Shown here: in pieces, positions 7,855 to 39,796 of the stretch
Numbering within the stretch: position 1 is the first letter of the stretch
Layout: each line of letters opens with the position of its first letter
Notes under the pieces: model-generated
Seen by the model: only the letters and a program-made list of their open reading frames with translations
What the model was told of the DNA's origin: nothing
The model's database searches: none
Origin: Brasilonema sp. UFV-L1
GTDB lineage: Bacteria; Cyanobacteriota; Cyanobacteriia; Cyanobacteriales; Nostocaceae
Direction: 5' to 3'
Length of the DNA: 40,320 nt
Assembly: GCF_012912105.1 (NCBI RefSeq)
Contig: NZ_QMEA01000057.1
Location: 1 to 40,320 of the forward strand
Made by a program: the position numbers and the translations under genes

Positions 7855-8799
7855 ATGAAGATACTCAGCTCAAGTAATCCTAAAACTAGCACAGAGGCAC
7901 TGGTTGCCTACGACTTGTGGAAAATGTACGGTGATTGCGCTGTTGTTCAGGGTGTAAGCTTCACTCTGAATCCCGGTGAAATTGTGGGTCTGTTGGGACC
8001 CAATGGTGCAGGGAAAACCACTACAGTTGGCATGCTTTATGGAGCTGTTGTGCCTAGTCGTGGCTTCGTCAAACTCGGTTCCACACAAGTGCAGAGTAAT
8101 GGGCGAATGGCTCGCGCCAAGATGGGTATTGTCACTCAGGAGGATAATCTTGACCTTGATTTTTCTGTGATTGAAAACCTCATCTACTTTATTCATCACT
8201 ATCGCATCTTGGGCAAAGACGCTCGCAAACGGGCTGGAGAACTGCTAGCAAAACTAGACCTGCAAAACTATGCCCAACGTTCCGTAAACGATTTATCAGG
8301 AGGGATGAAGCGACGGTTGGTGCTTGCTCGTGCCCTAATTAACTATCCGCAAGTGGTGTTTCTGGATGAGCCAACGACGGGACTTGATCCTGACGCCCGT
8401 CAGGAGTTTTGGAAAGTGGTGATTGACTTGAAGCAGCAGGGTTGTGGAGTGTTGTTAACAACGCACTACATGGATGAGGCTCAGCGATTGTGCGATCGCC
8501 TGCTCTTACTGCAAGACGGTCAAGTTATTGATCAAGGGACACCGAGTGAACTGATTGAGCGTACCGTGGGCAAAGAAGTTGTTGAAATCGAAGGGGTAAA
8601 TGAAGCGGTACTCCAAAGGTTTGCAACGCAAGCAGATACGTGGTGGCGTTCTTTTGGCAGCGGCTATCTGCTGGTATTACCTCCCGATGATTATCGACTT
8701 TGGGAACAACTGGTTGCCATGCGACCCCAACGCCTAACCCGTCGTCAGGCAAACTTAGAAGACGTGTTCTTGCGCTTAACCGGAGGAGTATTGCAATGA
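7855..8799 (+). CDS. ABC exporter ATP-binding subunit (NodI/DrrA-like)
   Basis: This 314-residue ABC ATPase has all hallmarks: Walker A GPNGAGKTT (about residues 44-52), signature LSGGMKRR, Walker B VVFLDEPTTGLD and the switch histidine in TTHYMDE. Its C-terminal 80 residues resemble the NodI/DrrA type that pairs with an ABC-2 permease. I start at 7855, with AGAAG upstream; the longer frame from 7819 adds a 12-residue leader. Its last codons overlap the start of the permease gene (ATGA at 8796-8799), so the two are translationally coupled. The first residues MKILSSSNP closely match the start of the next-but-one gene, a P450, although the proteins are unrelated. Likely role: energising export of a hydrophobic product, inferred from position at the head of the tailoring genes. 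Confidence 0.9.
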   Translation: MKILSSSNPKTSTEALVAYDLWKMYGDCAVVQGVSFTLNPGEIVGLLGPNGAGKTTTVGMLYGAVVPSRGFVKLGSTQVQSNGRMARAKMGIVTQEDNLDLDFSVIENLIYFIHHYRILGKDARKRAGELLAKLDLQNYAQRSVNDLSGGMKRRLVLARALINYPQVVFLDEPTTGLDPDARQEFWKVVIDLKQQGCGVLLTTHYMDEAQRLCDRLLLLQDGQVIDQGTPSELIERTVGKEVVEIEGVNEAVLQRFATQADTWWRSFGSGYLLVLPPDDYRLWEQLVAMRPQRLTRRQANLEDVFLRLTGGVLQ

Positions 8800-9575
8800 A
8801 AGGTCCTTCAGTTTCTGTCTGGGGAGTTTACTCTGTTTGGCATCGCCACGCTAAGGTTTATCAACGCACATGGCTCGTCAATTGCCTGCCACCTTTGTTA
8901 GAGCCAATTATCCATTTAGTTGCCTTTGGCTACGGCTTAATGCCTTTAATTGGAGCAATCACTTATGCAGAACAACAAATCCCCTATCTAAAGTTCATTG
9001 CACCTGGCACGATGGCAGTCGGTGTGTTGTTTCATTCTTTCCTTGAGGGCGCTTTCGCAAGTTTTGTTCGTATCCACTTCCAAAAAACCTGGCAAGCCTT
9101 ACTCACTGCACCGTTGAGTTTTTCCGAGGTCTTTCTAGGTGATTGGTTATGGGCGACTACCAAAGGGATGATTACAGGTACATTAACCGGAACCGTCGCT
9201 GTGTTTTGGGGCTTGTATCCAGCCTGGAACTTACTATTGTCTCTACCAATTATGCTCTTGGGGAGCCTTGTGTTTAGCGCAATGGGACTGTTAACCGCAG
9301 GCACTGTTCGTCAAAGTGATCAAATTAATATTCCCATCTTTCTCCTCATCGTTCCCATGTTTACCCTCTGTGGGACGTATTTCCCTCGCCAAACTCTACC
9401 CCCCTTTCTGGAACGAATTGCTTCAGTTCTCCCAATGGCATCGTTTACCGACTTACTCCGCTGGAATTTCGGATTACCCTCATTCTGGTGGCTGAAGATT
9501 TCTTGGCTACTGGTTCTGATGGTCGTCTTTGCCTATTTAGCGATGTGCCAGATTTATCCTAAGTTGATCAAGTAA
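8796..9575 (+). CDS. ABC-2 type permease (NodJ/DrrB-like)
   Basis: This 259-residue membrane protein has about six hydrophobic segments, for example PPLLEPIIHLVAFGYGLMPL, the stretch around GTLTGTVAVFWGL, LLLSLPIMLLGSLVFSAMGL, IPIFLLIVPMFTLCGTYF and a final ISWLLVLMVVFAYLAM. The PIFLLIVPMFTLCGTYFP and LPPFLERIASVLP blocks are characteristic of NodJ/DrrB ABC-2 permeases. A strong GGAGGA (8782-8787) precedes the ATG, which overlaps the ATPase stop by four bases. With the ATPase it should form an inner-membrane exporter of the family that moves lipooligosaccharides and hydrophobic drugs. The substrate is unknown; a cluster-made terpenoid is the natural candidate. The next gene, a P450, follows 34 bp later. 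Confidence 0.88.
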   Translation: MKGPSVSVWGVYSVWHRHAKVYQRTWLVNCLPPLLEPIIHLVAFGYGLMPLIGAITYAEQQIPYLKFIAPGTMAVGVLFHSFLEGAFASFVRIHFQKTWQALLTAPLSFSEVFLGDWLWATTKGMITGTLTGTVAVFWGLYPAWNLLLSLPIMLLGSLVFSAMGLLTAGTVRQSDQINIPIFLLIVPMFTLCGTYFPRQTLPPFLERIASVLPMASFTDLLRWNFGLPSFWWLKISWLLVLMVVFAYLAMCQIYPKLIK

Positions 9576-9609
9576 GTTATTTTTGAATAACTTTTGTTTT
9601 AGGAAAGCT

Positions 9610-10881
9610 ATGAAAATACCTAGTTCGAGCAATCCTGCTTTTGTTGAGGTGCTTCGCTTTGCCCTCAATCCCATTTCCTACCTGGATGCTAATTTTAAGC
9701 ACCTTGGTGATGTTTTTTGGGCGTACATCCCGCAATCAACCATCATTGTAGGTTCTCCCGCTGCGATTCACGAAGTGTTTGCAGCAGGAAGTGAAACATT
9801 TGACACAGGATTAAACAACGCTTTTGGCAGAATCTTCTTTCAAGAAGGTTCAATTGCACTGGCAAGTGGTGAAGAACACGTCAGGCAGCGCCAAATTCTA
9901 GGTCCAGTTTTTCGAGGCGAACGGATGCAAAGCTGCCGCGAGTTAGTTTGTCACGTTACACAAAATTTTCTCAACGGAAAACGTAAAGTCGTTGTTGAAG
10001 ATTTAGCTGAGACGATTACGATGACAACAATTCTCAATTTTACGTTTGGTTCAGTTGAAGGAGAGCGCTATCATACAATAGCACGAGAACTTGCGTCCCA
10101 GTTGAATATCATTGGGACGCCTCTAAAAGGGTTGCAATTATTTGTTCCCTTTTTACAAGTTAGTTGGGGTTCTTGGGGGGAGTGGCAGCGCTCTCAAAAG
10201 GTTTTCGTTGAAGAAGTGGCGGCTGAGATTCGAGAACGGCGACAAGCTGATGTAGGCGCTCAAGACGATGTTCTGTCGATCCTGATCAAAGAAGGCGAAA
10301 CGGACAAGCGAATTTGCGCCCAAGTCACAACGATGTTGTTGTCAGGACGAGACACCACTGCCCATAGCATGGCATGGACACTCTATTGGATTTGTGCAAT
10401 TCCAGAAATCAAAGACAAAGTAATTGCTGAAATTGATAGTGGTAAAGATTTCATGAGCTTACCTTATCTAGATGCGGTTATTAAAGAAACCTTGCGGCTT
10501 TATTCACCAGGCTTTATTGGAAATCCTCGTGTTACTAAAGTTCCTTTTAAACTTCTCGATTGGCAACTTGATCCAGGTACGCTTTTAACCATCTGCCCTT
10601 ACCTCGTCCATCAACAAGAGGAAATATATCCCGAACCAAAGACGTTCCGTCCTGAGCGTTTTCTGGAACGTCAGTTTAGCCCATATGAATACCTTCCATT
10701 TGGAGGGGGGAATCATACTTGTATCGGTAAAGCTTTAGCATTGTTCGAGATAAAACTGGTGATCGGAACCATTTTGTCGGAGTACAATGTGGAACTGGCA
10801 AACAAACGCCCTGTTCGCCCTATCAGGCATGGAATGGTCTTGGGTCCCGAAAAATATGAGTTGCTGGTAGAACGGCGATAA
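9610..10881 (+). CDS. Cytochrome P450, CYP110-like (paralogue 1)
   Basis: This 423-residue soluble P450 has the CYP110-type phrase ASGEEHVRQRQILGPVFRGERM (residues 85-106), I-helix SGRDTT (245-250) with the usual acid-threonine pair, ExxR (Glu293-Arg296), PERF (348-351) and heme loop PFGGGNHTCIG with Cys371 as thiolate ligand. The heme loop has His369 where Arg is usual. I start at 9610 (AGGA five bases upstream), not 9583. It is the first of four tandem paralogues (with 11480, 12851 and 14221) and the only one of them with a standard I-helix motif. It probably hydroxylates a terpenoid intermediate, drawing electrons from a ferredoxin encoded elsewhere. It has no membrane anchor. Confidence 0.93.
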   Translation: MKIPSSSNPAFVEVLRFALNPISYLDANFKHLGDVFWAYIPQSTIIVGSPAAIHEVFAAGSETFDTGLNNAFGRIFFQEGSIALASGEEHVRQRQILGPVFRGERMQSCRELVCHVTQNFLNGKRKVVVEDLAETITMTTILNFTFGSVEGERYHTIARELASQLNIIGTPLKGLQLFVPFLQVSWGSWGEWQRSQKVFVEEVAAEIRERRQADVGAQDDVLSILIKEGETDKRICAQVTTMLLSGRDTTAHSMAWTLYWICAIPEIKDKVIAEIDSGKDFMSLPYLDAVIKETLRLYSPGFIGNPRVTKVPFKLLDWQLDPGTLLTICPYLVHQQEEIYPEPKTFRPERFLERQFSPYEYLPFGGGNHTCIGKALALFEIKLVIGTILSEYNVELANKRPVRPIRHGMVLGPEKYELLVERR

Positions 10882-10956
10882 TCCTCATCCTCTTGCTTAC
10901 AACAATTTTCAGGTAACTGAACTACAAACGATGATACGCTGAACATAGAGTGATTG

Positions 10957-11049
10957 CAATACTGCTCGGTTAAGGAAATTAGGTAGGGCTGAAACCATTG
11001 AAATTTCGTTGTCTATGGTGTGCGGAAAGGGCTTAACCGAGTAGTATTG
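10957..11049. mobile_element. 93-bp MITE with 10-bp target duplication
   Basis: CAATACTGCTCGGTTAAG (10957-10974) and CTTAACCGAGTAGTATTG (11032-11049) are inverted repeats with one mismatch. The element is flanked by a perfect 10-bp direct repeat AGAGTGATTG (10947-10956 and 11050-11059). Similar ends, CAATACGGTTC-GTTA, occur at about 19073 beside an IS4-like fragment and at about 40267. A 10-bp duplication fits IS4- or ISAs1-type transposases. There is no coding capacity. Confidence 0.82.
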
Positions 11050-11068
11050 AGAGTGATTGTTTAATTAG

Positions 11069-11209
11069 ATGCCAGTATCTTACTCAGGAGATTTACGTCG
11101 TCGCGTGATTATAGCGTGTGTTGCGAAGGAAGGCTCTCAACGCCAGTTAACTCAAAGATTCAAGGTCAGCTTGTCATTTGTACGAAATCTACTGCGTCAT
11201 TATCGTTAA
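11069..11209 (+). pseudogene. IS630-like transposase N-terminal fragment
   Basis: A 46-codon frame reads MPVSYSGDLRRRVIIACVAK and then RQLTQRFKVSLSFVRNLLRHY, the helix-turn-helix start of an IS630-type transposase. A TAA ends it, although the following SGQIK in the same frame continues the family consensus briefly. Nothing of the DDE domain follows. It is a relic. Confidence 0.65.
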
Positions 11210-11479
11210 AGTGGACAGATTAAGCGAAACGACGTGGGGGATATCAAAATTAAGTACTACTTGATAGAGAATTGGTAGAAGCTAGTAGTTCTCTCCATAA
11301 GCTCCGCTTATCGCACGAGCGTGTTCGATTAAAAGTTGGTTTTCTTCTTCAGTGATGACGACTCCCATTACAACGATCGCTTAATTACTCCTTTACCTTC
11401 TCATATTTTATTTATGTCTTTTGAAAGAATAAAAACTGGGATGCTCCCTTATTTATTCATCTAGAAAATAGAGGAAATC
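11210..11479. other. Gap upstream of P450 paralogue 2
   Basis: I see no full gene. On the minus strand at about 11373-11287 a 28-codon frame (MGVVITEEENQLLIEHARAI and so on) ends in a stop; it may be the start of a lost gene. The last 80 bases are AT-rich and end with GAGGAAAT before the P450 ATG, so a promoter for the paralogue array may lie here. Confidence 0.4.
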
Positions 11480-12784
11480 ATGATTACACTTTCAAGTTCA
11501 ACCAAGAAGCAAAGAGAAATACCCTATTCTAAGAGTCCTTCTCTTATACAGCAAATTTCCTTTGTTCTGGATCCCATTACATACTTAGAAACGGAGGTTG
11601 TACGCCTTGGTGAAGTATTTTGGGCATATGCTCCGATGCGGGCAATTATCGCCGCTTCTCCTGAAGCCATTCGTCAAGTGTTTGCAAAGGGAGATGACAC
11701 ATTTGGCATCGTGGACAATGCTAGTGCCAAGTTCATCCTGGGTGGGGAAGGCTCGATAGGGCTTGTCAGTGGTGAAGAGCACATCAGGCAACGCCAAGTG
11801 TTAGGTCCAGCTTTTCGAGGTGAACACCTGAAAGCCTGTAGTGAGCTAGTTTGTCAAGTTACCCGAGGTCTCCTGAATGGAAAACGAAAGATTGTGATGG
11901 AAGAAGTTGCCCAAACTGTTAGTGTGGCATCTATTCTCAGTCTTACGTTTGGTTCAATTGAAGGAGAACGCTACCAGATGATCGCACGAGAGTTTACATC
12001 TCAGATTGAAATCATTGAGTCACCGCTAAAAGCTTTGCAGTTATTTGTTCCTCTTTTACGGTTTTTTTCAGGCTCGTGGGGAAAGTGGCAGCGCTCTCGG
12101 AAGATTTTTTTTGAAGAAGTTGCAGCTGAAACGCGAGAACGGCGACAAGCTGGTATGAGTGATCGAGGCGACATTCTTTCACTTCTCATTAAAGAGGGTG
12201 AACCGGACAATCGAATTTACTCTCAAGTGATGACTCTACTATACGCAGGACGAGAGTCTACCGCCTATACCCTAGCCTGGATTCTTTATTGGGTCTGTAC
12301 AATGCCCATAGTTCGGCATAAGCTCCTTGCAGAAATCGATAGTGGTGAGGACTATATGAGTTTACCCTACCTTGATGCGGTCATCAAAGAAGCCCTCCGA
12401 ATTTATCCACCAGCGTTTATATTCGGGCCTCGTGTCACAAAAGTTCCCTTCAAGCTCCTCGATTGGGAACTTGAACCAGGTACCGTAGTGTTCCCCTGCC
12501 CTTACCTGATCCATCACCGCAAGGAAATTTATCCAGAACCAAAGACCTTCCGTCCTGAGCGTTTTTTGGAACGACAATTTACTCCATACGAGTACCTTCC
12601 TTTCGGAGGAGGGCATCGAACCTGCATCGCAATGGCATTAGCATTGTTCGAGTTAAAACTGGCAATAGGAACAATTTTGTCTGAATACAACGTGGAGTTA
12701 GCAGACAAACGCCCTGTGCGAGCTGTAAGACGTGGAGCAGTTCTAGGACCAGAGAGATATGAGCTGCTAGTGGAGCGGCGATAG
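11480..12784 (+). CDS. Cytochrome P450, CYP110-like (paralogue 2)
   Basis: This 434-residue P450 has VSGEEHIRQRQVLGPAFRGE (residues 97-116), I-helix AGREST (256-261), ExxR (Glu304-Arg307), PERF and heme loop PFGGGHRTCIA with Cys382. In the I-helix the conserved threonine next to the acid is serine (Ser260), and the residue after the heme CysIle is Ala rather than Gly. A good GAGGAAA precedes the ATG. From codon 280 to past the stop it is identical at DNA level to the next gene (12316-12839 versus 13687-14210). It probably acts on the same chemical family as its neighbours; the separate N-terminal two thirds suggest a different substrate pocket. Confidence 0.93.
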   Translation: MITLSSSTKKQREIPYSKSPSLIQQISFVLDPITYLETEVVRLGEVFWAYAPMRAIIAASPEAIRQVFAKGDDTFGIVDNASAKFILGGEGSIGLVSGEEHIRQRQVLGPAFRGEHLKACSELVCQVTRGLLNGKRKIVMEEVAQTVSVASILSLTFGSIEGERYQMIAREFTSQIEIIESPLKALQLFVPLLRFFSGSWGKWQRSRKIFFEEVAAETRERRQAGMSDRGDILSLLIKEGEPDNRIYSQVMTLLYAGRESTAYTLAWILYWVCTMPIVRHKLLAEIDSGEDYMSLPYLDAVIKEALRIYPPAFIFGPRVTKVPFKLLDWELEPGTVVFPCPYLIHHRKEIYPEPKTFRPERFLERQFTPYEYLPFGGGHRTCIAMALALFELKLAIGTILSEYNVELADKRPVRAVRRGAVLGPERYELLVERR

Positions 12785-12850
12785 TCCTCATCGTTTAGCT
12801 CAGTCTAGCGGTTACTCCACGATCAATTACTTGAGAAATAGACGGCAATT

Positions 12851-14155
12851 ATGATTACACTTTCAAGTTTAACCCAGAACCAAAATAAGATACCTAATTC
12901 CAAGACTCCTTCCCTGCTACAACTGTTTTCTTTTGTCCTTGATCCCGTTGCATATCTAGAAACAGGGTTTGCACGCCTTGGTGAAGTATTTTGGGCATAT
13001 GCTCCGATGCACGCAATTATCGCAGCTTCTCCTGAAGCAATTCGCCAAGTGTTTGCGGCAGGAAATGAGACATTTAGCATTATGGACAATGCTAGTGTAA
13101 GGCTTATCCTTGGTGGGGAAGGCTCGATGGGACTTGTCAGTGGTGAAGAACACATCAGGCAACGCCAAGTGTTAGGTCCAGCTTTTCGTGGCGAACGGCT
13201 CCAAGCCTGTCGTGAGTTAGTATGTCAAGTTACGCGAAGCCTCTTGGATGAAAAACATAAGGTTGTAACTGAAGATATTGCTCAAATCATTACGATGACA
13301 ACTATTCTCAGTTTTACGTTTGGTTCATTCGAGGAAGAACGCTATCAGACGATTGCTCGGGAGCTCACGTTTCAGCTCGAAATTATTGAGTCACCGCTGA
13401 AAGCTTTGCAATTATTTGTTCCCTTTTTCCGGGCTAGTTGGGGCTCATGGGGAAAGTGGCAGCGCTCTCGAAAGATTTTTTTTGAGGAAGTTGCAGCTGA
13501 AGCGCAAAAACGGCGACAAGCAGGCATGAGCGATCAAGGAGATGTCCTCTCACTTCTCATTAAAGAGGGTGAAACAAATGATCGAATTTGCTCTCAAGTC
13601 ATGACTATGTTATTCGCAGGACGAGAGTCGACTTCTTATACCTTAGCCTGGATACTCTATTGGATTTGTACGCTCCCAGAAGTTCAGCATAAGCTCCTTG
13701 CAGAAATCGATAGTGGTGAGGACTATATGAGTTTACCCTACCTTGATGCGGTCATCAAAGAAGCCCTCCGAATTTATCCACCAGCGTTTATATTCGGGCC
13801 TCGTGTCACAAAAGTTCCCTTCAAGCTCCTCGATTGGGAACTTGAACCAGGTACCGTAGTGTTCCCCTGCCCTTACCTGATCCATCACCGCAAGGAAATT
13901 TATCCAGAACCAAAGACCTTCCGTCCTGAGCGTTTTTTGGAACGACAATTTACTCCATACGAGTACCTTCCTTTCGGAGGAGGGCATCGAACCTGCATCG
14001 CAATGGCATTAGCATTGTTCGAGTTAAAACTGGCAATAGGAACAATTTTGTCTGAATACAACGTGGAGTTAGCAGACAAACGCCCTGTGCGAGCTGTAAG
14101 ACGTGGAGCAGTTCTAGGACCAGAGAGATATGAGCTGCTAGTGGAGCGGCGATAG
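12851..14155 (+). CDS. Cytochrome P450, CYP110-like (paralogue 3)
   Basis: This 434-residue protein is collinear with paralogue 2: AGREST at 256-261 with Ser260 in place of the usual Thr, ExxR Glu304-Arg307, Cys382 in PFGGGHRTCIA. The N-terminal 279 residues differ at many positions, for example VVTEDIAQIITMTTILSFTF against IVMEEVAQTVSVASILSLTF, while the last 155 codons are identical. It starts 66 bp after the previous stop, with a weak ribosome binding site. The identical tail implies very recent gene conversion or unequal crossing over. Confidence 0.93.
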   Translation: MITLSSLTQNQNKIPNSKTPSLLQLFSFVLDPVAYLETGFARLGEVFWAYAPMHAIIAASPEAIRQVFAAGNETFSIMDNASVRLILGGEGSMGLVSGEEHIRQRQVLGPAFRGERLQACRELVCQVTRSLLDEKHKVVTEDIAQIITMTTILSFTFGSFEEERYQTIARELTFQLEIIESPLKALQLFVPFFRASWGSWGKWQRSRKIFFEEVAAEAQKRRQAGMSDQGDVLSLLIKEGETNDRICSQVMTMLFAGRESTSYTLAWILYWICTLPEVQHKLLAEIDSGEDYMSLPYLDAVIKEALRIYPPAFIFGPRVTKVPFKLLDWELEPGTVVFPCPYLIHHRKEIYPEPKTFRPERFLERQFTPYEYLPFGGGHRTCIAMALALFELKLAIGTILSEYNVELADKRPVRAVRRGAVLGPERYELLVERR

Positions 14156-14220
14156 TCCTCATCGTTTAGCTCAGTCTAGCGGTTACTCCACGATCAATTA
14201 CTTGAGAAATGGACGGCATC

Positions 14221-15528
14221 ATGACTACACTTTTAAACTCGCTCCGGAATCCGACAGAGATACCTAGTTCAAAGGCTCCTTATCTTCTACAGCTATCTTC
14301 TTTTATCCTTGATCCCATTGCATATTTAGAAGCAGGGTTTGCGCGCAGTGATGTATTTTGGGTATATGCTCCCATGCGGGCAATCATCGCAGCTTCTCCT
14401 GAAGCCGTTCGCCAAGTGTTTGCGGAGCCAGAAGAGACATTTGGTGTAGTAGAGAACTTCGCTGATAGTGTAAGGTTTATCTTTGGGGGCGATGGCTCAA
14501 TTGCGATGGCAAGTGGTGAAGAATACCTTAGGCAGCGCCAAATGCTCTTACCCGCTTTTCGTGGTGAACGGATGAAAACCTGCCGTGAGTTAGTTTGTCA
14601 GGTTACACGAAGTCTCCTAGATGGGAAACGTAAGATTGTGACTGAGGAAGTTGCTCGGGAAATTACGGTGGCAACAATTCTTAGTTTTACGTTTGGTTCA
14701 TTTGAAGGAGAGCGCTACCAAACGATTGCACGCGAGTTCATGTTTCAGCTTGGGCTCATAGAGACGCCGCTGAAAGCTATACAGTTATTTAACCCCTTTT
14801 TACAGGTTTTCTCGGGTACGTACAGAAAGTGGCTGCGCTCTCGGGAGATTTTTTTTGAAGAAGTTGCGGCTGAGATTCGAGAGCGGCGGCAAGCAGGTGT
14901 AGGCGATCAAGGAGATATTCTATCGATCCTGATGCAGGAAAGTGAAACGAACCAGGAAATTTATTGTCAAGTAATGACTCTGTTATTTGCAGGACGAGAG
15001 CCTACTTCCTATACCCTAACCTGGATACTCTACTGGGTTTCTACGATTCCAGAAGTTAAAGATAAGCTCCTTGCAGAGATCGATAGTGGAGAAGATTTCA
15101 GAAGCTTACCTTATCTAGACGCTGTCATCAAAGAGGCTCTACGAATTTATCCACCACCGTATATCTTTGGACCTCGTAAAACAAAATTTCCCTTCAAGCT
15201 TCTTGATTGGGAACTCGAACCTAATACAGTAATATACCCCTCTCCCTACCTAATCCATCACCGTGAGGAAATTTATCCCGAACCGGAGAAGTTCCGTCCT
15301 GAGCGTTTTCTGGAACGTCATTTTACCCCATACGAATATATTCCTTTTGGAGGTGGGCATCGAAGCTGTATAGGTATGGCGCTAGCGTTGTTCGAGTTAA
15401 AACTGGCGATAGGAACAATTTTGTCTGAATACAACGTGGAGCTAGCAGACAAGCGTCCTGTGCGAGCCATCAGGCGTGGAGCAGTCCTGGGACCAGAAAA
15501 ATTTGAACTGCTGGTAGAACCGCGATAG
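14221..15528 (+). CDS. Cytochrome P450, CYP110-like (paralogue 4) with Glu-Pro I-helix
   Basis: This 435-residue P450 has ASGEEYLRQRQMLLPAFRGE (residues 97-116), ExxR Glu305-Arg308 and heme loop PFGGGHRSCIG with Cys383. The I-helix motif reads AGREPT: Pro261 replaces the conserved threonine beside Glu260. Loss of this residue is rare; CYP152 peroxygenases such as OleT have an Arg-Pro pair there, while this protein keeps the acid. I start at 14221 because it aligns with the starts of paralogues 2 and 3; an in-frame ATG at 14209 would add MDGI. The 3' untranslated stretch repeats the TCTAACGGTTACTCC phrase found after the other paralogues. Confidence 0.9.
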   Translation: MTTLLNSLRNPTEIPSSKAPYLLQLSSFILDPIAYLEAGFARSDVFWVYAPMRAIIAASPEAVRQVFAEPEETFGVVENFADSVRFIFGGDGSIAMASGEEYLRQRQMLLPAFRGERMKTCRELVCQVTRSLLDGKRKIVTEEVAREITVATILSFTFGSFEGERYQTIAREFMFQLGLIETPLKAIQLFNPFLQVFSGTYRKWLRSREIFFEEVAAEIRERRQAGVGDQGDILSILMQESETNQEIYCQVMTLLFAGREPTSYTLTWILYWVSTIPEVKDKLLAEIDSGEDFRSLPYLDAVIKEALRIYPPPYIFGPRKTKFPFKLLDWELEPNTVIYPSPYLIHHREEIYPEPEKFRPERFLERHFTPYEYIPFGGGHRSCIGMALALFELKLAIGTILSEYNVELADKRPVRAIRRGAVLGPEKFELLVEPR

Positions 15529-15610
15529 TCCTTATCGTCTAGTCTAGTCCAGTCTAACGGTTACTCCGCTATCCATTTTTCATCTGAGGAAGAGATCAGT
15601 AAGTAGCATT

Positions 15611-16495
15611 ATGACTCAACTTTCAAGTTCAATACAAAATCAAAGCTTAGCTGTTGCAACATGGTACGATAGGGTTTGGCCATTTGCCCGCCTGTTATGG
15701 TTAAATGAAGATAACCTTGCTGTACACCTAGGCTACTGGGACGAGAATACTCGCAGCCATGCTGAATCATTAATCAACATGAATCAGGCGATGGCAGAGC
15801 GTGTTGGCATGTTCCAAGGAGCACGAGTCTTGGACGCGGGTTGTGGCTTTGGCGGTACGTCATTGTGGCTTGCTAAGGAGTATGGTGCTCGAGTGGTTGG
15901 TGTCAACATCTCGTCCGATCAGGTTGCCCGAGCAAACCACTATGCTAAAAAGCGAGGTCTTGATGACTTTGTCAGCTTCGAAAACGTGAATCTGTTAAAC
16001 ACAGGGTTGCCAGATGGGAGTTTCGATATCTTTTGGGCCCAAGAGAGTCTCTTGCATATCCTTGATAAACAGCTTTTTTTAGCCGAGGCTTATCGTCTGC
16101 TCAAACCAGGTGGCAAGTTGGTCGTTCAAGATAGTTATTTGTTCAATAGGACTTACTCTCAAAAAGAAGAACGTCACCTGCAAGCTATATCTTCCGGTGG
16201 ACTAATCCCAAGATTGCCAAGACCTGATGAATTTATCACTTGGGCAAGGACAGTGGGATTTCAAGATATCTGCATTGAGGACATCTCTCATTATGCCAAG
16301 CGTTCTTGTATTCGCAGCTACAGGCAGAATATGTTCTTTTACCCGATTGGTCAGGTCTTACGTACCTTGCGTATACAATCAGAGCAAGAATATCGCTCTG
16401 CACTCGGTAACTTCGCCTTGTATCGAACCTTCCAGCTTGGCTTATGGTTTTTAGCTATCTGTACGGCACGCAAGTCTGAATTGGCTCAAGGTTAA
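15611..16495 (+). CDS. SAM-dependent methyltransferase (class I)
   Basis: This 294-residue methyltransferase has motif I VLDAGCGFGGTSLWLA (residues 73-88), acidic loop VVGVNIS (95-101), FDIFWAQESLLHI (138-150) and LLKPGGKLVVQD. The layout resembles the tocopherol, phytyl-quinol and sterol C-methyltransferase branch, which fits methylation of an aromatic or terpenoid carbon or hydroxyl. It starts MTQLSSSIQNQ, closely like the start of the P450 at 11480 (MITLSSSTKKQ) at both protein and DNA level, though the enzymes are unrelated. It lies 82 bp after P450 paralogue 4 and 25 bp before the next P450, so cotranscription is likely. The actual methyl acceptor cannot be told from sequence. Confidence 0.88.
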   Translation: MTQLSSSIQNQSLAVATWYDRVWPFARLLWLNEDNLAVHLGYWDENTRSHAESLINMNQAMAERVGMFQGARVLDAGCGFGGTSLWLAKEYGARVVGVNISSDQVARANHYAKKRGLDDFVSFENVNLLNTGLPDGSFDIFWAQESLLHILDKQLFLAEAYRLLKPGGKLVVQDSYLFNRTYSQKEERHLQAISSGGLIPRLPRPDEFITWARTVGFQDICIEDISHYAKRSCIRSYRQNMFFYPIGQVLRTLRIQSEQEYRSALGNFALYRTFQLGLWFLAICTARKSELAQG

Positions 16496-16520
16496 CTCGT
16501 TCATTTCTAAGACAAGTTAT

Positions 16521-17915: not shown

Positions 17916-17981
17916 CTCATTAAATATTGTTGATTTGGCAGTCTTTTCTTGCAAGTCGTTCAACTTGCGATGAGGAGTTTT

Positions 17982-20369: not shown

Positions 20370-20383
20370 TAAAGGCAATTGTT

Positions 20384-21751: not shown

Positions 21752-21810
21752 GCATCTCTAACAAGGCTCTAAAAAAAAGCTTTAGGTATAGTTAGTGAAT
21801 TACCTTCTAT

Positions 21811-21980: not shown

Positions 21981-22029
21981 CTACCTTCGCTGAAGTTTTA
22001 TAGCGTGTTTCATGATCGAGAGGTGTTTT

Positions 22030-31149: not shown

Positions 31150-32235
31150 ATGAAACCTGAGAAAGTTAGAACTCCAAAACCGACTCAACCACACAAGGGA
31201 GTTGATAAAAAGAAGGCAATGAGCCTCGCTGCTAGCTGGTACGTCGCTATGCCGTCCAAAGCCTTGGGGAAAAAGCTAAAGGCAGTTGAGTTGTTCGGTC
31301 AGCCTCTAGTAGCTTGGCGAGATCAACAGGGCAAACCAGTCATTATGGAGCGCTATTGCTCCCATTTAGGTGCTAGTTTAGCTATTGGCGAGTTGGTAGA
31401 TGGTTGTATTCAGTGTCCTTTTCATCATTGGCGCTATGACCGCTCCGGAAATTGTGTTTTTGTACCTGAGGTAAACCACATTCCACCAAAGGCTCGTCAA
31501 GTTACTTATGTAACTACTGAAAGATATGGTTACGTTTGGGTGTGGTACGGTTCTCAAAATCCTCTCTTTCCCTTACCAGAGTTTCCATCTGCTGAAGATA
31601 ATAACTATATACCCTACAGATTTGAGTTCGAAGTCGAAACAACAGTGCGACGGGTAGCTGAAAATACCTATGATCATTTGCATGTAGTTACAGTACATCA
31701 GTTAAAGGTTTCAGGCTCCGCTCAACTCACGCTGCTTAATAACCAAAATTCAGAAGAGTATAGCGAATCATCTGTTCAAAAAGAAAGTAGCTTTAAAGCT
31801 TTGATTAAGTTCCCCCTAAAAAACTATGTGGGACCACTAGGTAGAGTCGTCCAAGCTTTTGGACTAGATGCTAAAGTGCTGACGTTACAAGTAGATGGTT
31901 CGCCTAGCGGACATAAGGTGACAGGTTTCATAGATGGTGAGGAGAGATTTCAAACTATGGGAGGCATTACCCCAATTGCTGAAAACAAGACTGTCAAGCA
32001 CTCTTTAGTAATGGTTAAGAAAACAGGCACTTTTTGGTTAGATATACTTTATTATATTCTCTTTGGTTGGCAAAGTAAAAACTCTTTTACACAGGATATA
32101 CCAATTTGGAATACCATGGATCCATCTGTAGGCGATGCTTATGTAAAAGAAGATCTAGGAGTTTTAAATTTCAGACGCTTCTATCAAAATTGGATTAATA
32201 AAGCTGAGATTGAAGGCGAAAATCTGACGGAGTGA
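31150..32235 (+). CDS. Rieske non-heme iron oxygenase (E)
   Basis: This 361-residue oxygenase has Rieske ligands Cys70, His72, Cys89 and His92 and a mononuclear site Asp175-x2-His178-x4-His183. The N-terminal domain is identical to that of gene D while the catalytic domain is clearly different (EVETTVRRVAENTYDHLHVV against LEAATTARQVLENMYDYYHL), so the two should differ in substrate or site of attack but share an electron donor. I start at the ATG at 31150; the longer frame from 31048 begins with a TTG and has no ribosome binding site. It lies upstream of dxs with a 270-bp gap. Confidence 0.9.
   Translation: MKPEKVRTPKPTQPHKGVDKKKAMSLAASWYVAMPSKALGKKLKAVELFGQPLVAWRDQQGKPVIMERYCSHLGASLAIGELVDGCIQCPFHHWRYDRSGNCVFVPEVNHIPPKARQVTYVTTERYGYVWVWYGSQNPLFPLPEFPSAEDNNYIPYRFEFEVETTVRRVAENTYDHLHVVTVHQLKVSGSAQLTLLNNQNSEEYSESSVQKESSFKALIKFPLKNYVGPLGRVVQAFGLDAKVLTLQVDGSPSGHKVTGFIDGEERFQTMGGITPIAENKTVKHSLVMVKKTGTFWLDILYYILFGWQSKNSFTQDIPIWNTMDPSVGDAYVKEDLGVLNFRRFYQNWINKAEIEGENLTE
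31200..31587 (+). repeat. Second copy of the 388-bp Rieske-domain block
   Basis: This is the partner of 29483-29870. The zero divergence, set against strongly divergent flanks on both sides, points to recent gene conversion rather than an old duplication. Confidence 0.9.
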
Positions 32236-32503: not shown

Positions 32504-34453
32504 ATGAACATAAGCCACATTACTCATCCCAATCAGTTACATGGACTGTCAATTTTGCAATTGCAAGATATTGCGCGTCAGATTCGAGAAAAGCATTTAC
32601 AAACAGTCGCCACTAGTGGAGGACACTTAGGAGCAGGTTTGGGTGTGGTTGAACTGACCCTAGGGCTTTACCAGACTCTCGACCTTGACCGTGATAAAGT
32701 GATTTGGGATGTTGGTCATCAAGCCTATCCGCACAAACTGCTGACTGGGCGGTACAATCGCTTTCATACCTTACGGCAAAAGGATGGTATTGCTGGCTAT
32801 CTCAAACGCTGCGAAAGTCCGTTCGACCACTTTGGTGCCGGTCACGCTTCGACCAGTATCTCTGCCGCTTTGGGAATGGCTCTTGCCAGAGATATGAAAG
32901 GCGAAAACTTCAAAGTGGTCGCACTAATTGGGGATGGGGCACTCACAGGCGGCATGGCCTTAGAAGCGATTAACCATGCAGGTTACTTGCCCAGAACTAA
33001 CTTGTTAGTTGTACTCAACGATAATGAAATGTCAATTTCGCCCAACGTGGGTGCGCTTTCTTCTCACCTCAATCAACTGCGGTTCAGCAGCTCATTACAA
33101 TTACTTAAAAAACTGGAGGAACAGTTTGAAACAATAATGCATATAGATTGCCTTCTCCCAGAGTTGAATCGGCTCAAGCAAGGGATAAAACGCTTGGCGG
33201 TGCCGAAGGTGGGAGCGGTGTTTGAGGAACTGGGCTTCACCTACATGGGACCAATTGACGGACACAATCTAGAAGAATTGATTGCCACCTTTGAGCAAGC
33301 GCATCAACAAGTTGGTCCGCTATTGGTCCATGTGGCGACAGTCAAAGGCAAAGGGTATGAAATCGCTGAGCAAGAAAAGGTCGGCTATCATGCCCAATCT
33401 AAATTCGATTTGGCAACGGGCAAGGCAATTGCTAAAAGCTCACCCAAACCCCCCAGCTACTTCAAAGTATTCGGCGACACCCTGACCAAAATTGCTGTGA
33501 GTAACCCCAAAGTGATTGGCATTACTGCAGCTATGTCCACCGGGACAGGGCTAGACATCCTCCACAAACAACTACCCCAGCAATTCATCGACGTGGGGAT
33601 AGCTGAGCAACACGCAGTGACGCTATCGGCGGGTCTGGCTTGCGAGGGGATGCGTCCGGTTGTTGCCATCTACTCTACCTTCCTGCAACGAGGCTACGAC
33701 CAGATTGTTCACGATGTCTGCATCCAAAATCTGCCCGTGTTCTTCTGCATGGATCGTGCTGGTATTGTAGGTGCCGATGGTCCCACCCATCAGGGGATGT
33801 ACGATATTGCTTATCTGCGTTGCCTTCCCAACATAGTGCTGATGGCTCCCAAAGATGAAGCCGAACTCCAGCAAATGCTGGTGACTGGGATCAACTACAC
33901 CAATGGTCCAATCGCCATGCGGTATCCGCGCGGCAACGGTTATGGAGTTCCTTTGAGGACAGAAGGCTGGGAACCTTTACCCATTGGCAAAGCAGAAATT
34001 CTGCGTACAGGAGACGATGTGTTGATGGTCGCTTATGGTTCGATGGTTCATCCAGCGCTGCAATCGGCTGCAATCCTTAGTGAACACGGTATCAAAGCCA
34101 CTGTCGTCAATGCTCGCTTTGCCAAGCCGTTGGATACTGAGTTAATTGTGCCTCTGGCTAAGCAAATTGGTCGAGTTTTCACTCTTGAGGAAGGGTGTTT
34201 GATGGGTGGCTTTGGTTCAGCCGTTGTCGAAACTCTACTGGACCACCATGTGGTAGTTCCAGTCATCCGGATCGGTGTACCCGATCAGTTAGTTGAGCAT
34301 GCCACTCCAGAAGAATCCAATTTAGAACTAGGTTTGACGAGTCCACAAATTGTTGAGCGAGTTCGAGCACAATTTCAACAAACCAAACTGGGCGTACAAG
34401 TATTGCGAAATAGCACGCTCAATTCAAAGACCAATACTGCAATTCGCTCATAA
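32504..34453 (+). CDS. dxs: 1-deoxy-D-xylulose-5-phosphate synthase
   Basis: This 649-residue full-length DXS catalyses the first, flux-setting step of the MEP pathway (pyruvate plus glyceraldehyde 3-phosphate). Visible blocks are [15 protein letters not shown] and [15 protein letters not shown] (active-site histidines), the thiamine diphosphate motif [13 protein letters not shown] with the downstream Asn in LNDNEMSIS, and [20 protein letters not shown] with the catalytic Glu. GAGGA precedes the ATG at good spacing. Compared with the housekeeping cyanobacterial form as I remember it, it has GAGLG for GPGLG and a divergent stretch around [20 protein letters not shown], so it may be a dedicated isozyme. 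Together with ispG, GGPP synthase and ispH it raises GGPP supply. Confidence 0.95.
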
Positions 34454-34893: not shown

Positions 34894-36120
34894 ATGCAAA
34901 CTCTTTCAACTCCAAGCACTTCCAACCCTTCTTCATCTCAAAGCATAACTAGTACCATCATTCCTCGCCGAAAAACGCGTCCAGTCCGCGTTGGCGATGT
35001 CATCATTGGCGGTGGTTCTCCTGTCGTCGTGCAGTCGATGATTAATGAAGACACCTTGGACGTGGGCGCATCTGTGAGTGCGATTCGTCGTCTGCATTCC
35101 ATTGGCTGTGAGATTGTCCGCGTTACTGTACCCAGTCTGGCTCACGCCAAAGCAGTCGCTCAAATTAAGCAGAACCTCACAAAGACTTACCAAAAAGTTC
35201 CCTTGGTGGCTGATGTCCATCATAACGGCATGAAGATTGCCTTGGAAGTCGCAAACCATGTGGACAAGGTGCGGATTAATCCAGGACTTTATGTGTTTGA
35301 AAAACCCAACCCCAATCGTACTGAATATACTCAAGCCGAATTCGACGAAATTGGTGACAAAATTCGTGAAACCCTAGAGCCTTTGGTGCTCTCTCTTAGG
35401 GAGCAGGGAAAGGCAATGCGGATTGGGGTGAACCACGGTTCTCTAGCAGAGCGGATGTTGTTTACCTACGGTGATACACCCGAAGGTATGGTACAATCAG
35501 CTTTAGAATTTATTCGCATTTGTGAATCTCTCGACTTCCGCAATTTAATCATTTCCCTCAAAGCTTCCAGAGTGCCTGTGATGGTTGCGGCTTATCGCCT
35601 GATGGTTCAACGGATGGACGAATTAGGCATGAACTACTCCTTGCATCTGGGTGTAACTGAAGCAGGCGACGGTGAATACGGTCGGATTAAGTCTACTGCT
35701 GGAATTGCCACACTCTTAACTGATGGCATTGGCGATACTATCCGTGTCTCACTTACAGAAGCGCCAGAAAAAGAAATTCCCGTCTGCTACAGTATTCTGC
35801 AAGCCTTGGGATTGCGGAAGACTATGGTGGAGTATGTGGCTTGTCCCTCTTGCGGTCGCACCTTGTTTAACCTGGAGGAGGTGTTGCATCAGGTTAGAGA
35901 AGCCACTAAGCACCTCACTGGTCTGGATATTGCCGTCATGGGCTGTATTGTCAACGGGCCAGGGGAAATGGCAGATGCTGATTACGGTTATGTTGGTAAG
36001 CAGCCTGGTTATATCTCTTTGTATCGCGGGCGTGAAGAAATCAAAAAAGTCTCTGAGTCCAAGGGGGTTGAAGAACTAATTAATTTGATCAAAGCTGATG
36101 GTCGTTGGGTTGACCCTTAA
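34894..36120 (+). CDS. ispG: 4-hydroxy-3-methylbut-2-enyl diphosphate synthase
   Basis: This 408-residue IspG (GcpE) catalyses the penultimate MEP step, reducing MEcPP to HMBPP with a [4Fe-4S] cluster. Ligands are Cys317 and Cys320 (ACPSCGRT), Cys351 ([10 protein letters not shown]) and Glu358. The N-terminal TIM barrel carries VQSMINEDT and [14 protein letters not shown]. It resembles the ferredoxin-dependent cyanobacterial/plant type and looks intact. It may be a second, cluster-linked copy; the window does not show whether another exists. A GC-rich dispersed repeat follows the stop. Confidence 0.95.
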
Positions 36121-36480: not shown

Positions 36481-36489
36481 ATGAGTCAA

Positions 36490-37458
36490 ATGAGTACTCC
36501 AGTCTTTGAACGATCATTGCAAATTTCTCAAATTGACTTGCATCAAGGATTTGAGCGTGAAAGCAACAAGGTAAGTTTTGACCTGAAGACCTACTTATCA
36601 CAAAGGCAAGCTGAAGTGGAAGCGGCGCTAGATTCGTCAATCACCGTCGTCTATCCAGAAAAAATCTACGAGGCTATGCGCTATTCGCTGCTTGCTGGGG
36701 GAAAACGCTTGCGCCCAATTCTGTGTCTTGCTAGCTGTGAACTCACAGGAGGCACACTAGAAATGGCGATGCCGACAGCTTGTGCGCTGGAAATGATTCA
36801 CACTATGTCTTTGATCCATGATGACTTACCAGCAATGGATAACGATGATTATCGGCGAGGTCGGTTGACAAACCATAAAGTTTATGGTGAAGACATTGCC
36901 ATTCTCGCTGGTGATGGACTGTTAGCCTACGCGTTTGAGTTTATTGTTGAAAAGACAAAACAGGTGCCAGCAGAGCATTTGTTGCAGGTTGTTGCCAAGT
37001 TAGGTCATGCAGTTGCAGCAACAGGTTTAGTTGGCGGTCAAGTTCTTGATTTACAATCTGAGGGAAAGGATAATATTGATATAGAAACCCTCAACTTTAT
37101 TCACACCCATAAAACTGGAGCTTTGTTAGAAGCCTCTGTTGTGTGTGGAGCACTTCTGGCAGGAGCCAACAATGAGGTTTTGCACAGACTTTCTCGCTAT
37201 GCTCGCAATATTGGTCTAGCTTTTCAGATTATTGATGATGTGCTAGATGTGACTGCAACTAGCGAGGAACTTGGGAAAACAGCAGGTAAAGACCAAAAGG
37301 CGCACAAAGCTACTTATCCTAGTTTATGGGGTATTGAAGAATCCAGGTATCAGGCGAAAAAATTAGTTGAGGAAGCCAAGGCTGAATTAGCTCCCTTTGG
37401 GGAAAGGGCTATCCCTCTAATGGCGATCGCAGATTACATCACAGCTAGAACTCACTAA
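36490..37458 (+). CDS. crtE: Geranylgeranyl diphosphate synthase
   Basis: This 322-residue trans-prenyltransferase condenses IPP with allylic diphosphates. The first Asp-rich motif is DDLPAMD (residues 111-117), preceded by SLIH, and the second is DDVLD (249-253). GGKRLRP (70-76), GQVLDL and KTGALL are the other conserved blocks. The two-residue insertion in the first motif and the small residues before it fit bacterial/plant type II GGPP synthases. I choose 36490 over 36481 because GAGGAG abuts the first ATG and is nine bases from the second. It most likely supplies C20 donor to the UbiA enzyme, although it may also serve carotenoid and chlorophyll synthesis. Confidence 0.92.
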
Positions 37459-37464
37459 GTAGCG

Positions 37465-38560
37465 TTGCTGAACCACAGTATGAATCTGGGTCTAGAGACG
37501 CGAAATTTGAGCCAGCGCGAAGTTATTGCTAACCCGGACGGAGTAGGCCAAGGTGACACCTCAATCAGAAAAGTGGCTCAGAGATTTGGTGTAGCTAAAA
37601 GTTTTGTACAAAAACTAATTTCCATGAATAAGACTCAAGGTCATGTACAACCAGACAGCAAGGTGGAGCAATAAAGAGTGCATTGGATAGATATTCAGCT
37701 CAACTAGCCGCAATGGTTGAACAATACTCAGATGCAACTTTATCAGAATACTGTGAGTATTGGGGTACAACTCACAATCATTGGGTAAGCACAAGTACAA
37801 TGTGTCGTACATTACAAAAACAAAAACTAACACTAACACTAAAAAAAAGACGTTACGCAGCAGCCAAGCGAAAACAGAAAGAGTACAAAATTTGAGAACG
37901 GAGTATTGGCAGAAAGTTCAACAAATAGACCCGAAAAACTTAGTTTTCATCGATGAAATGGGTGTTTTATTGGGTTTAGCAAGAACTCATGCCCGAAGCC
38001 CTGATGGAAGTAGGGTGTATGATTTTAAACCATTTTATCGGGGGGCGAAGGTTACAGTAATTGGAGCAATTAGCTTGGAACAAGTTTTAGCTGTGATGAC
38101 TTTGAATGGTTCAATGGATGGAAATGCATTTAAAGCCTTTATCGAAAAGTGTTTACTTCCTCAATTATGGTCACGGGGTCTTACACGTAAAAAATTGGGC
38201 AGCCTTTATACAACGAGTACCCGACAGAGCCGACAAATCAACAAAACTAAGGCTGCCCAATTTTTAGGGGACAATGCGTCTGGTTGCTGTAGTTGTTATG
38301 GATAATGTCCCAGCACATAAAGTCAAAGAAATTGAGTCTTTAATTCAGTCTGTGGGTGCAAGCGTTCTTTATCAGTCACCCTATTCTCCTGACTTTAATC
38401 CCATTGAACACTTGTGGTCACAATTAAAATCTTTTCTCCGCTCCTTTTCTCCAACCACTGCGAAAATGGTTGATGTTTTAATTGCAACTGCACTCGATTT
38501 GATGAATCCTGTGCATTTAAAAAACTGGTTTACAAACTGTTGTTACTGTACCTCATAAAC
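37465..38560 (+). pseudogene. IS630-family transposase, frameshifted and interrupted
   Basis: Pieces in several frames add up to one IS630 transposase. They are a helix-turn-helix region (TSIRKVAQRFGVAKSFVQKL), a linker (DATLSEYCEYWG, VSTSTMCRTLQKQKL), the DDE core (NLVFIDEMGVLLGLARTHAR, LAVMTLNGSMDGNAFKAFIEKCLLPQLW) and a tail (VVVMDNVPAHK, SPYSPDFNPIEHLWSQLK) ending NCCYCTS. All three catalytic residues can be found, but at least three frame changes and a 76-bp palindromic insert before the second Asp disrupt it. It lies between the GGPP synthase gene and ispH and probably arrived after those genes became neighbours. Confidence 0.85.
38190..38265. mobile_element. 76-bp palindromic insert within the IS630 relic
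   Basis: AAAAATTGGGCAGCCTT (38190-38206) and its exact reverse complement (38249-38265) bound a 42-base centre. TA borders both sides (38188-38189 and 38265-38266), as for IS630/mariner-type targets. The element splits the transposase frame just before the VVVMDN block. It could be a tiny MITE; a terminator-like repeat is the alternative. Confidence 0.6.
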
Positions 38561-38593
38561 TTGCAATACGCTGTATAATAAGAGGAACGGCAA

Positions 38594-39796
38594 ATGGATA
38601 CCAAAGCCTTTAAGCGATCACTCCATAGTTCAGAGCACTACTATCGTAAGGGATTTGGCCGAGCAGCAGAAGTAGCAGGAATGTTGCACTTCGAGTATCA
38701 AAGCGATTTGATTCAGCTTCTTCGCAACAACGGCTATATGTTGCAGCACGGCAACGTTACTATTCGGTTAGCAGAGGCGATGGGATTTTGTTGGGGGGTA
38801 GAGCGAGCCATTGCTTTGGCATATGAAACACGTCAGCAATTTCCTACTGAGCGCATTTGGGTTACCAACGAGATCATCCACAACCCCTTAGTCAACCAAA
38901 ACTTGCAGGATATGCAGGTGGATTTTATTCCGGTTAACGATCTTGGGCAGAAGGATTTTTCAGTCGTTGCCAAAGAAGATGTCGTTATATTGCCTGCCTT
39001 TGGCGCCAGTGTTCAAGAAATGCAGTTATTGAACGAAAAAGGCTGCAAAATTATGGATACGACTTGCCCGTGGGTTTCTAAAGTGTGGAACAGTGTCGAG
39101 AAGCACAAAAAAGCAAACTACACCTCGATTATCCACGGCAAGTATAAGCATGAAGAGACGATTGCTACCACTTCCTTTGCTGGGACATATTTGGTCGTCC
39201 TGAATTTGCTTGAAGCTGAGTACGTCTGTAATTACATCCTCAATGGCGGTGACCGTGAAGAATTCTTGACCAAATTTGCTCGTGCTCATTCTCCTGGATT
39301 TGATCCTGACACTGACCTGGTTTGGATAGGTATTGCCAATCAAACTACCATGCTCAAGGGGGAAACTGAGCAAATCGGCAAGCTATTTGAGCGCACGCTC
39401 ATGCGTAAGTATGGTCCAGCTGAACTCAACAATCATTTCAAGAGCTTCAACACAATCTGCGATGCCACCCAAGAACGTCAGGATGCGATGTTTCAGCTTG
39501 TAGAAGAAAAGCTGGACTTGATGGTAGTCATTGGAGGTTTTAACTCTTCCAACACAACTCAACTCCAAACAATCCCTCGCTTGATCGGGATTCCTTCCTA
39601 TCACATCGATAGTGCAGAGCGCATCGGACCGAGAAATCGGATTGAGCACAAAAAGTTGCATTCCTGTTTAGAAGTACTTGAAAACTGGCTACCACGAGGT
39701 CCTATTGTGGTGGGAATTACCTCTGGCGCTTCGACCCCAGACAAAGTTGTTGCTGATGTAATTGAGAAGATTTTTGACATCAAAGCAGCGATGTAG
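38594..39796 (+). CDS. ispH: 4-hydroxy-3-methylbut-2-enyl diphosphate reductase
   Basis: This 400-residue IspH (LytB) of the long cyanobacterial/plant type performs the last MEP step, converting HMBPP to IPP and DMAPP. The iron-sulfur ligands are Cys66 (GFCWGVERA), Cys158 ([10 protein letters not shown]) and Cys289 ([11 protein letters not shown]). [22 protein letters not shown] and [11 protein letters not shown] are conserved active-site regions. The start [20 protein letters not shown] matches the family; AGAGGAA lies upstream. It follows an IS630 relic and precedes a decayed ispE, completing a partial MEP gene group. Confidence 0.95.

Follow-up and report, generated by a model that had tools for sequence, protein, structure and literature searches.

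Contig NZ_QMEA01000057.1 (C290) of Brasilonema sp. UFV-L1 was analyzed over its whole length of 40,320 bases, hereafter the window. The genome is a draft of 8.31 Mb in 337 contigs and, because the window is one complete contig, the gene cluster that it carries is cut off at the contig end. Twenty-three biosynthetic and transport genes were found between positions 7855 and 39796, all on the + strand and all with open reading frames. Families were assigned by Pfam and NCBIfam scans of the open-reading-frame proteins, with NCBIfam matches judged by their curated cut-offs. These genes likely form a merosterol (mst)-type meroditerpenoid biosynthetic gene cluster enlarged with tailoring oxygenases. 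The gene set, including six cytochromes P450 (PF00067) and five Rieske oxygenases (PF00355), had been proposed from the letters alone (the sequence-only reading); every gene and both counts were recovered in the scans. Features going beyond that reading were two IS630 remnants, an ispE relic, a repeat within the cyclase, and exact repeats in two oxygenase pairs.

The core of the cluster runs from UbiA to ispH. It contained a UbiA 4-hydroxybenzoate prenyltransferase (23931-24890; TIGR01474, 284 bits against a cut-off of 275; NDLWDRDID motif), an alpha/beta hydrolase (24900-25880; PF12697), chorismate lyase (27379-27990; NF037993, 252 bits, cut-off 175), a monodomain class II cyclase of MstE type that contains an internal repeat (28111-29331), two core Rieske oxygenases placed by Pfam and a tree, RieD (29376-30497) and RieE (31048-32235), dxs (32504-34453; TIGR00204), ispG (34894-36120; TIGR00612), the geranylgeranyl diphosphate synthase (GGPPS) CrtE (36481-37458; NF045685, 565 bits, cut-off 460), and ispH (38594-39796; NF009911). 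UbiA, chorismate lyase, dxs, ispG, ispH, and CrtE each scored above the curated NCBIfam cut-off. Chorismate lyase, a 4-hydroxybenzoate prenyltransferase, an MstE-type cyclase, and methylerythritol phosphate (MEP)-pathway genes thus co-occur in the window. The two remnants of IS630-type DDE transposases (PF13358) were located at 26246-26812 on the - strand and, between GGPPS and ispH, at 37760-38305 on the + strand. Most intergenic gaps were short, and the two longest (1498 and 1135 nucleotides, nt) lie at these remnants.

Upstream of the core, the cluster begins with an ATP-binding cassette (ABC) transporter ATPase (7855-8799; PF00005, E=4e-33) and an ABC-2 membrane protein as its exporter partner (8700-9575; PF01061, E=8e-25). 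These are followed by P450a (9583-10881; FGGGNHTCIG loop), P450b (11480-12784), P450c (12851-14155), P450d (14209-15528), an S-adenosylmethionine (SAM) methyltransferase (15611-16495; PF08241) whose leader resembles those of P450c and P450d, P450e (16521-17915), the KshA-like Rieske oxygenases RieA (17949-19064; PF00355 and PF19298) and RieB (19353-20369; Pfam and tree), P450f (20384-21751; PF00067 and tree), the KshA-like RieC (22012-23061; Pfam and tree), and a short-chain dehydrogenase/reductase (SDR; 23137-23892; PF00106, E=1e-61).

The mst cluster itself comes from Scytonema PCC 10023. Its cyclase, MstE, turns geranylgeranyl dihydroxybenzoate into merosterolic acid A (PMC9401909), and the merosterol pathway is described as comprising MEP-pathway elements, a UbiA-like prenyltransferase, and a squalene-hopene-cyclase-like cyclase (PMC5618424). 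The window shares with it a monodomain class II cyclase, a UbiA-like prenyltransferase, and MEP elements. The closest PDB match of the window cyclase was MstE (6sbb; E=1.7e-118), while Pfam gave weak SQHop domains only. An AlphaFold model of the cyclase had a predicted local distance difference test (pLDDT) of 91.2 and a predicted template-modeling score (pTM) of 0.91, and Foldseek placed seven MstE chains at the top of the PDB matches to the model, with TM-scores by target of 0.92-0.94 and 48-49% identity in the fold alignment. The protein is a single alpha-alpha domain with MstE as its closest solved relative. Its DxD[ST]T motif reads DADST at residues 97-101, in which Asp99 aligns with D109 of MstE, and Tyr148 aligns with the Tyr of the MstE IRAYI motif (Y157, aromatic site); MstE residue numbers were taken from PDB titles and PMC9401909 and mapped onto the window cyclase by alignment. 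Both sequence and predicted fold mark the cyclase as akin to MstE, with a geranylgeranyl (di)hydroxybenzoate as its presumed substrate.

Unlike MstE, the window cyclase carries a 55-residue insertion with a repeat. The DxD and HxCV motifs were 122 residues apart, as against 59-69 in 18 aligned relatives; in a set of nine cyclase sequences the distance was 59-69 in eight and 91 in the ninth (G456). The extra 55 residues contained a second copy (residues 167-205) of the preceding stretch (112-150); its local score was 96, the highest among 5000 shuffles being 43, and there was a trace at the DNA level too. The G456 cyclase (L045:18148-20000 with L046) had an insertion of its own of about 24 residues at the same place, unlike that of the window, with a weak hint of a 14-residue repeat only (its score was reached by 6 of 5000 shuffles). 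An insertion peculiar to the window cyclase was therefore rejected, and the coincidence of the two insertions indicates that this site tolerates insertions. A clear repeat there was seen in the window cyclase alone among the sequences compared. The AlphaFold model put the first copy inside the core (block means 90-98) and placed the second poorly (block means 80 down to 49), so that the active site probably retains the first copy; the second may be a flap.

Outside the window, MstE-like cyclases formed the C-terminal part of open frames of 713-755 codons in several cyanobacteria (L039:17742-19880, L041-L042, L043-L044, L045-L046, L053), including Nostoc calcicola, Nostoc linckia, and a Chroococcidiopsidaceae metagenome-assembled genome (MAG). 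The N-terminal part of the L039 frame, the one scanned, had no Pfam match. Comparable long cyclase frames were present in Chitinophaga and Pedobacter loci.

The supply genes of the cluster were compared with other copies in the same genome. Two places each were found for ispG (GcpE), ispH (LytB), dxs, and chorismate lyase, one of them in the window; the second copies of dxs, ispG, and ispH lie on contigs C46, C118, and C293, respectively. There were two places for dxr, both on contigs other than that of the window, and nine UbiA-family and three polyprenyl synthase places, with one of each in the window. The sequence-only reading would have fallen had UbiA, the lyase, dxs, ispG, and ispH been the only housekeeping copies; further places were found for all five, and a sole-copy role for ispG, ispH, dxs, and chorismate lyase was rejected. 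The aromatic and isoprenoid supply that it had proposed for the cluster is borne out by these copies and by the gene families. For five genes (GGPPS left out), the cluster copies were also compared with their counterparts in the clusters of a Nostocales MAG and of Scytonema sp. NIES-4073. The cluster copy was 93% identical to these for ispG (85% to the nearest other copy of its own genome), 80-89% for ispH (74% to its own other copy), 84-87% for dxs (79%), 70-71% for chorismate lyase (65%), and 68% for UbiA (62% to the nearest other copy). Since each of the five resembles the cluster copies in the two other genomes more closely than the nearest other copy in its own, the cassette looks old, unlike a recent duplicate of housekeeping genes.

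The cyclase was present in 8 of 217 family genomes and 4 of 388 class genomes, its own included in both, and in none of the six other genomes of the genus (E≤1e-10). An alignment-based scan of the genome contigs found 24 cyclase loci; a scan with a single cyclase sequence found none. The order UbiA-lyase-cyclase-dxs-ispG-GGPPS-ispH was common to the window, Scytonema sp. NIES-4073 (G460), and the Nostocales MAG Centralia_MAG_434 (G457), where the contig end truncates ispH. These two were the only neighborhoods with the full collinear cassette among the eight searched. In G477, G488, G502, G456, G178, and G103 the cyclase lay without a supply cassette in the stretches read, and the G456 contig ends soon after the cyclase. 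The collinear core from UbiA to ispH in NIES-4073 and the MAG points to an mst-type meroditerpenoid cluster.

The NIES-4073 cluster (L051, L037-L038) contained UbiA, lyase, cyclase, Rieske, dxs, ispG, GGPPS, and ispH genes as in the window, with a pair of P450e-like P450s upstream (P450e is 56% identical to both); downstream followed ispE, a coaE-like gene, dxr, and then a relative of the DAHP (3-deoxy-D-arabino-heptulosonate 7-phosphate) synthase of Brasilonema contig C152. It differed from the window, over the 40 kb read, in having a Pyr4-like cyclase, an intact ispE, and one core Rieske gene rather than two. A P450 gene stood between GGPPS and ispH, where the window has an IS630 remnant. 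No counterpart of P450a-d or RieA-C was found in these 40 kb. The Pyr4-like membrane cyclase (PF25129; L037:15987-16709) lies next to UbiA in the same cluster as the MstE-type cyclase. In the Centralia_MAG_434 cluster, dxs and ispG were separated by another cyclase gene, which is truncated (L036:3017-3715). Among the literature matches listed, one named NIES-4073, and its title concerns tolyporphins.

At the right end of the window, tblastn with the NIES-4073 ispE revealed a relic of this gene on the + strand (39830-40227), downstream of ispH, with its middle missing and an internal stop. The matching pieces (39830-39937, 39957-40124, and 40108-40227) were 59-82% identical to the query. Contig C152 (5,862 bases) starts with a coaE-like gene, dxr, and DAHP synthase in the same order as in NIES-4073, at identities of 79, 93, and 91%, respectively; the other genomic dxr was 81% identical to the NIES-4073 cluster copy. 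We infer that C290 continues into C152, perhaps with an insertion element between them. The supply may then be fuller than the sequence-only reading had it, with dxr and DAHP synthase included, and the cluster would also own the entry step to chorismate.

The eleven oxygenases formed about four families. P450a-d formed one clade (support 100/100) with mutual identities of 61-84%; P450a was 61-66% identical to P450b-d, and P450b 84% identical to P450c. Family genomes were searched with P450c alone for the P450s and with RieA alone for the Rieske proteins. The P450c search gave matches in 102 of 217 family genomes (E≤1e-90) and, among the matches listed, none outside the cluster exceeded 44% identity. 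By sequence, P450a-d are a private four-gene P450 family, newly described here. P450e grouped with P450f (90/88), and the tree left their join to the NIES-4073 P450 pair open. This tree had 21 rows, including 9 of the 11 loci L075-L085, and two long CYP51-like branches in it are unreliable. In the Rieske tree (30 rows; a partial G456 match and several matches of the RieA search were left out), RieD and RieE grouped with the Rieske protein of the NIES-4073 cluster (100/100), separate from RieA-C; RieA and RieB were sisters (98/94), and RieC joined more weakly (90/76). The KshA_C domain was strong in RieA-C and weak in RieD/E. The heme-Cys loop was present in all six P450s and the [2Fe-2S] motif in all five Rieske proteins; against this, the iron-site pattern matched three of five Rieske proteins and the P450 oxygen-activation pattern three of six P450s. 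By eye, RieB and RieC retain D-x2-H-x3/4-H, and the remaining P450s show variants of the oxygen-activation motif.

Two of these pairs contained exact tracts on the + strand. A tract of 524 nt in P450b (12316-12839) was identical to 13687-14210 in P450c and covered the C-terminal heme-binding part and the downstream spacer, past the stop codon. A tract of 388 nt in RieD (29483-29870), in the Rieske domain, was identical to 31200-31587 in RieE. Fourfold sites of P450b/c were identical at 74 of 74 positions in the C part, 37 of 57 in the N part, and 35 of 53 in the middle part; those of RieD/E were identical at 59 of 59 positions in the converted Rieske part and 16 of 33 in the catalytic part. 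The exact tracts point to recent gene conversion, or to an assembly consensus effect on true near-identical repeats. In RieA/B/C, the other tested P450a-d pairs, and P450e/f, fourfold differences in the cofactor part were about equal to those elsewhere, and a general homogenization of all Rieske and P450 cofactor parts was rejected on these sites, as only P450b/c and RieD/E show conversion. Nothing related to gene conversion in Rieske genes of cyanobacterial clusters was found in the literature by title and start of abstract. The upstream leader and first codons of the methyltransferase matched P450c over 184 nt (73%), and the ABC ATPase and P450a shared 54 nt around their starts (81%). These shared gene starts suggest that the oxygenase block expanded by recombination at repeated gene starts. 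With four P450s belonging to one amplified family, two of them sharing the exact 524-nt tract, the count may overstate the distinct oxidations; eleven oxygenase genes need not mean eleven reactions.

RieA-like proteins occurred in 15 of 217 family genomes, their own included (E≤1e-40), and the neighborhoods of 8 of the 14 others were read widely. Five of the eight lie in sterol-type clusters: in G389, G558, G549, G439, and G416 the RieA relatives stood beside SdmA- and SdmB-like genes and a cyclase gene of the oxidosqualene cyclase type. Four of the five also had a squalene epoxidase and a reductase of ERG4/24 type; the G389 stretch ends inside the cyclase. The G549 cyclase scored above the NCBIfam squalene/oxidosqualene cyclase cut-off and below that of the 2,3-oxidosqualene cyclase model; in the same genome SdmA and SdmB models were below their cut-offs, and Pfam SE and ERG4_ERG24 above theirs. 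In G465, G412, and G574 no sterol-type gene was found in the 10-20 kb read around the RieA relatives. In the tree, RieA-C joined L096 and L097 (81/67, weak), rows from genomes without a wide neighborhood reading, and then two sterol-cluster rows (82/72). Several KshA-like Rieske paralogues were found in the sterol-type clusters L098-L104, with seven on G389 contig C102. Homologues of SdmAB are described in a sterol cluster of Calothrix sp. NIES-4105 (PMC10202945). Given these relatives, RieA-C may act on a sterol-like skeleton, which would fit a merosterol and implies no direction of transfer.

The same relatives could instead speak for two adjacent pathways, with an mst-type core (UbiA to ispH) beside an oxygenase and exporter block (7855-23061) serving another substrate, sterol- or triterpenoid-like. 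The lack of counterparts of P450a-d and RieA-C in the NIES-4073 stretch would suit such a division. It appears unlikely, however, since all genes share one strand with mostly short gaps, and P450e, from the upstream block, resembles the P450 pair upstream of UbiA in NIES-4073, though the tree leaves this join open. Cyanobacterial sterol-type clusters, moreover, are built on an oxidosqualene cyclase, and at E≤1e-5 the window had no match to three proteins from a sterol cluster, namely its oxidosqualene cyclase, its squalene epoxidase, and its ERG4/24 reductase.

For a single mst-type pathway, the following substrate, order of steps, product, and export are proposed. DAHP synthase (C152) and chorismate lyase would supply 4-hydroxybenzoate, and dxs, dxr (C152), ispG, ispH, and GGPP synthase would supply geranylgeranyl diphosphate (GGPP), which UbiA would couple with 4-hydroxybenzoate. 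Ring hydroxylation by a core oxygenase, perhaps RieD/E or P450e/f, could then give a dihydroxybenzoate like the substrate of MstE. Asp99 of the cyclase, equivalent to MstE Asp109, would protonate the terminal double bond, and sterol-like rings would be closed onto the aromatic ring. The P450s, KshA-like Rieske enzymes, and SDR may subsequently hydroxylate and oxidize the skeleton, the methyltransferase may cap an oxygen or a carbon atom, and export of the product would fall to the ABC pair. A highly oxidized merosterol-like product is likely; the eleven oxygenases, from which the sequence-only reading argued for a far more oxidized compound, support it without proving it.

Several observations weigh against the mst-type assignment. 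No UbiH-type hydroxylase was present among the window proteins scanned with Pfam, although a P450 or Rieske enzyme could serve. Comparison with the mst locus (accession KY464182; PMC13346784) was at the level of its published description. No 25-mer is common to the last 300 window bases and C152, whose proposed join to the window is based on gene order. The insertion sequence (IS) remnants, the ispE relic, and the 1.5-kb gap indicate some decay, and the cluster may be silent. Taken further, these signs would describe a cluster in the course of loss, derived from an mst-type ancestor, with amplified oxygenases and by now largely or wholly silent: the relic has a large gap and a stop, two IS630 remnants lie inside the cluster, and none of the six congeneric genomes has the cyclase at E≤1e-10. 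We give this little credence, as all 23 frames are open, the heme-Cys loops and [2Fe-2S] motifs are complete in number, and supply genes are 70-93% identical to their collinear relatives. The meroditerpenoid cluster is real and probably functional.

A tolypodiol-type (tyl) cluster, with the same supply cassette and products of tolypodiol skeleton, is very improbable: the window and C152 share much of the HT-58-2 gene order (PMC8073705, Table 1), but the tolypodiol cyclase TylF is described as Pyr4-like (PMC13307353), and at E≤0.01 nothing in the window matched the Pyr4-like protein of NIES-4073. Table 1 of PMC8073705 gives the HT-58-2 cluster as ubiH, ubiA, ubiC, dxs, ispG, crtE, a hypothetical protein, an hcaE-type Rieske gene, a methylase, ispH, a P450, ispE, coaE, and dxr. 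The window resembles it in much of the supply cassette (dxs, dxr, ispE, ispG, ispH, crtE, ubiA, ubiC), which is present up to ispH, with ispE a relic and the coaE-like gene and dxr on C152 if the proposed join holds. It is unlike it in cyclase type and in its oxygenases, of which that table lists one P450 and one of hcaE type. A genome search with PF25129 gave no match, and as its control was also silent, absence from the genome is not shown thereby. Of the two parallels drawn in the sequence-only reading, the mst pathway is upheld by the MstE-type cyclase, UbiA, lyase, and MEP genes, and tolypodiol was rejected as a parallel for the cyclase. By cyclase and cassette, the window belongs to the mst-type group at the level of sequence; it shares the tolypodiol supply cassette in large part, not the cyclase type. 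Hapalindole, ambiguine, and welwitindolinone clusters are described as carrying dxs, dxr, ispG, ispH, and a DAHP synthase gene, along with Rieske oxygenases specific to the strain (PMC4236562). They resemble the window in carrying supply genes along with many Rieske enzymes, a comparable precursor-supply cassette, and differ in their indole-isonitrile chemistry; IsnA/IsnB indole-isonitrile families were absent from the Pfam scans of window proteins, in which no search was aimed at them.

Judged by title and opening of the abstract, none of the papers listed deals with this locus. To our knowledge, few cyanobacterial meroditerpenoids of merosterol type are known, and their late oxidations are little understood. 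New here are the cyclase insertion with its repeat, the private P450 family, the exact tracts, the Rieske relatives in sterol clusters, the ispE relic, and the C152 gene order. The locus offers a natural set of paralogous, partly mosaic P450 and Rieske enzymes that would serve a single, probably sterol-like scaffold. One supply cassette is seen with cyclases of two distinct types, MstE-like and Pyr4-like, and NIES-4073 carries both. Two testable questions are raised: whether sterol-type Rieske oxygenases moved onto a scaffold other than a sterol, and whether the MstE ring system is still formed by a cyclase that carries an inserted repeat. A bolder proposal, which we regard as doubtful, is that the cluster is an active diversification engine making a densely oxygenated, undescribed merosterol class. 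It would require, jointly, that conversion homogenizes the electron-transfer and cofactor modules of some oxygenases (a Rieske domain over 388 exact nt and a P450 heme half over 524) as substrate-binding modules diverge, that sterol-tailoring Rieske oxygenases were co-opted onto a sterol-like meroditerpenoid, and that the cyclase was remodeled by a repeat just behind the aromatic-site Tyr.

A plasmid origin was rejected: when 15400-40320 was searched against plasmids by megablast, only three short matches came up, one to an IS630 transposase, one to part of a Nostoc plasmid that bears no annotation, and one of 104 bases to a polyprenyl synthetase gene; tblastn of the cyclase gave a single weak match, in Deinococcus. 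Upstream of the cluster, the window encodes a glyoxalase-family protein (4601-5095) and a TPS-domain (haemagglutinin-type secretion) protein (5837-7654), and transposase-like reading frames, judged by eye, lie near the left contig end (564-2429).

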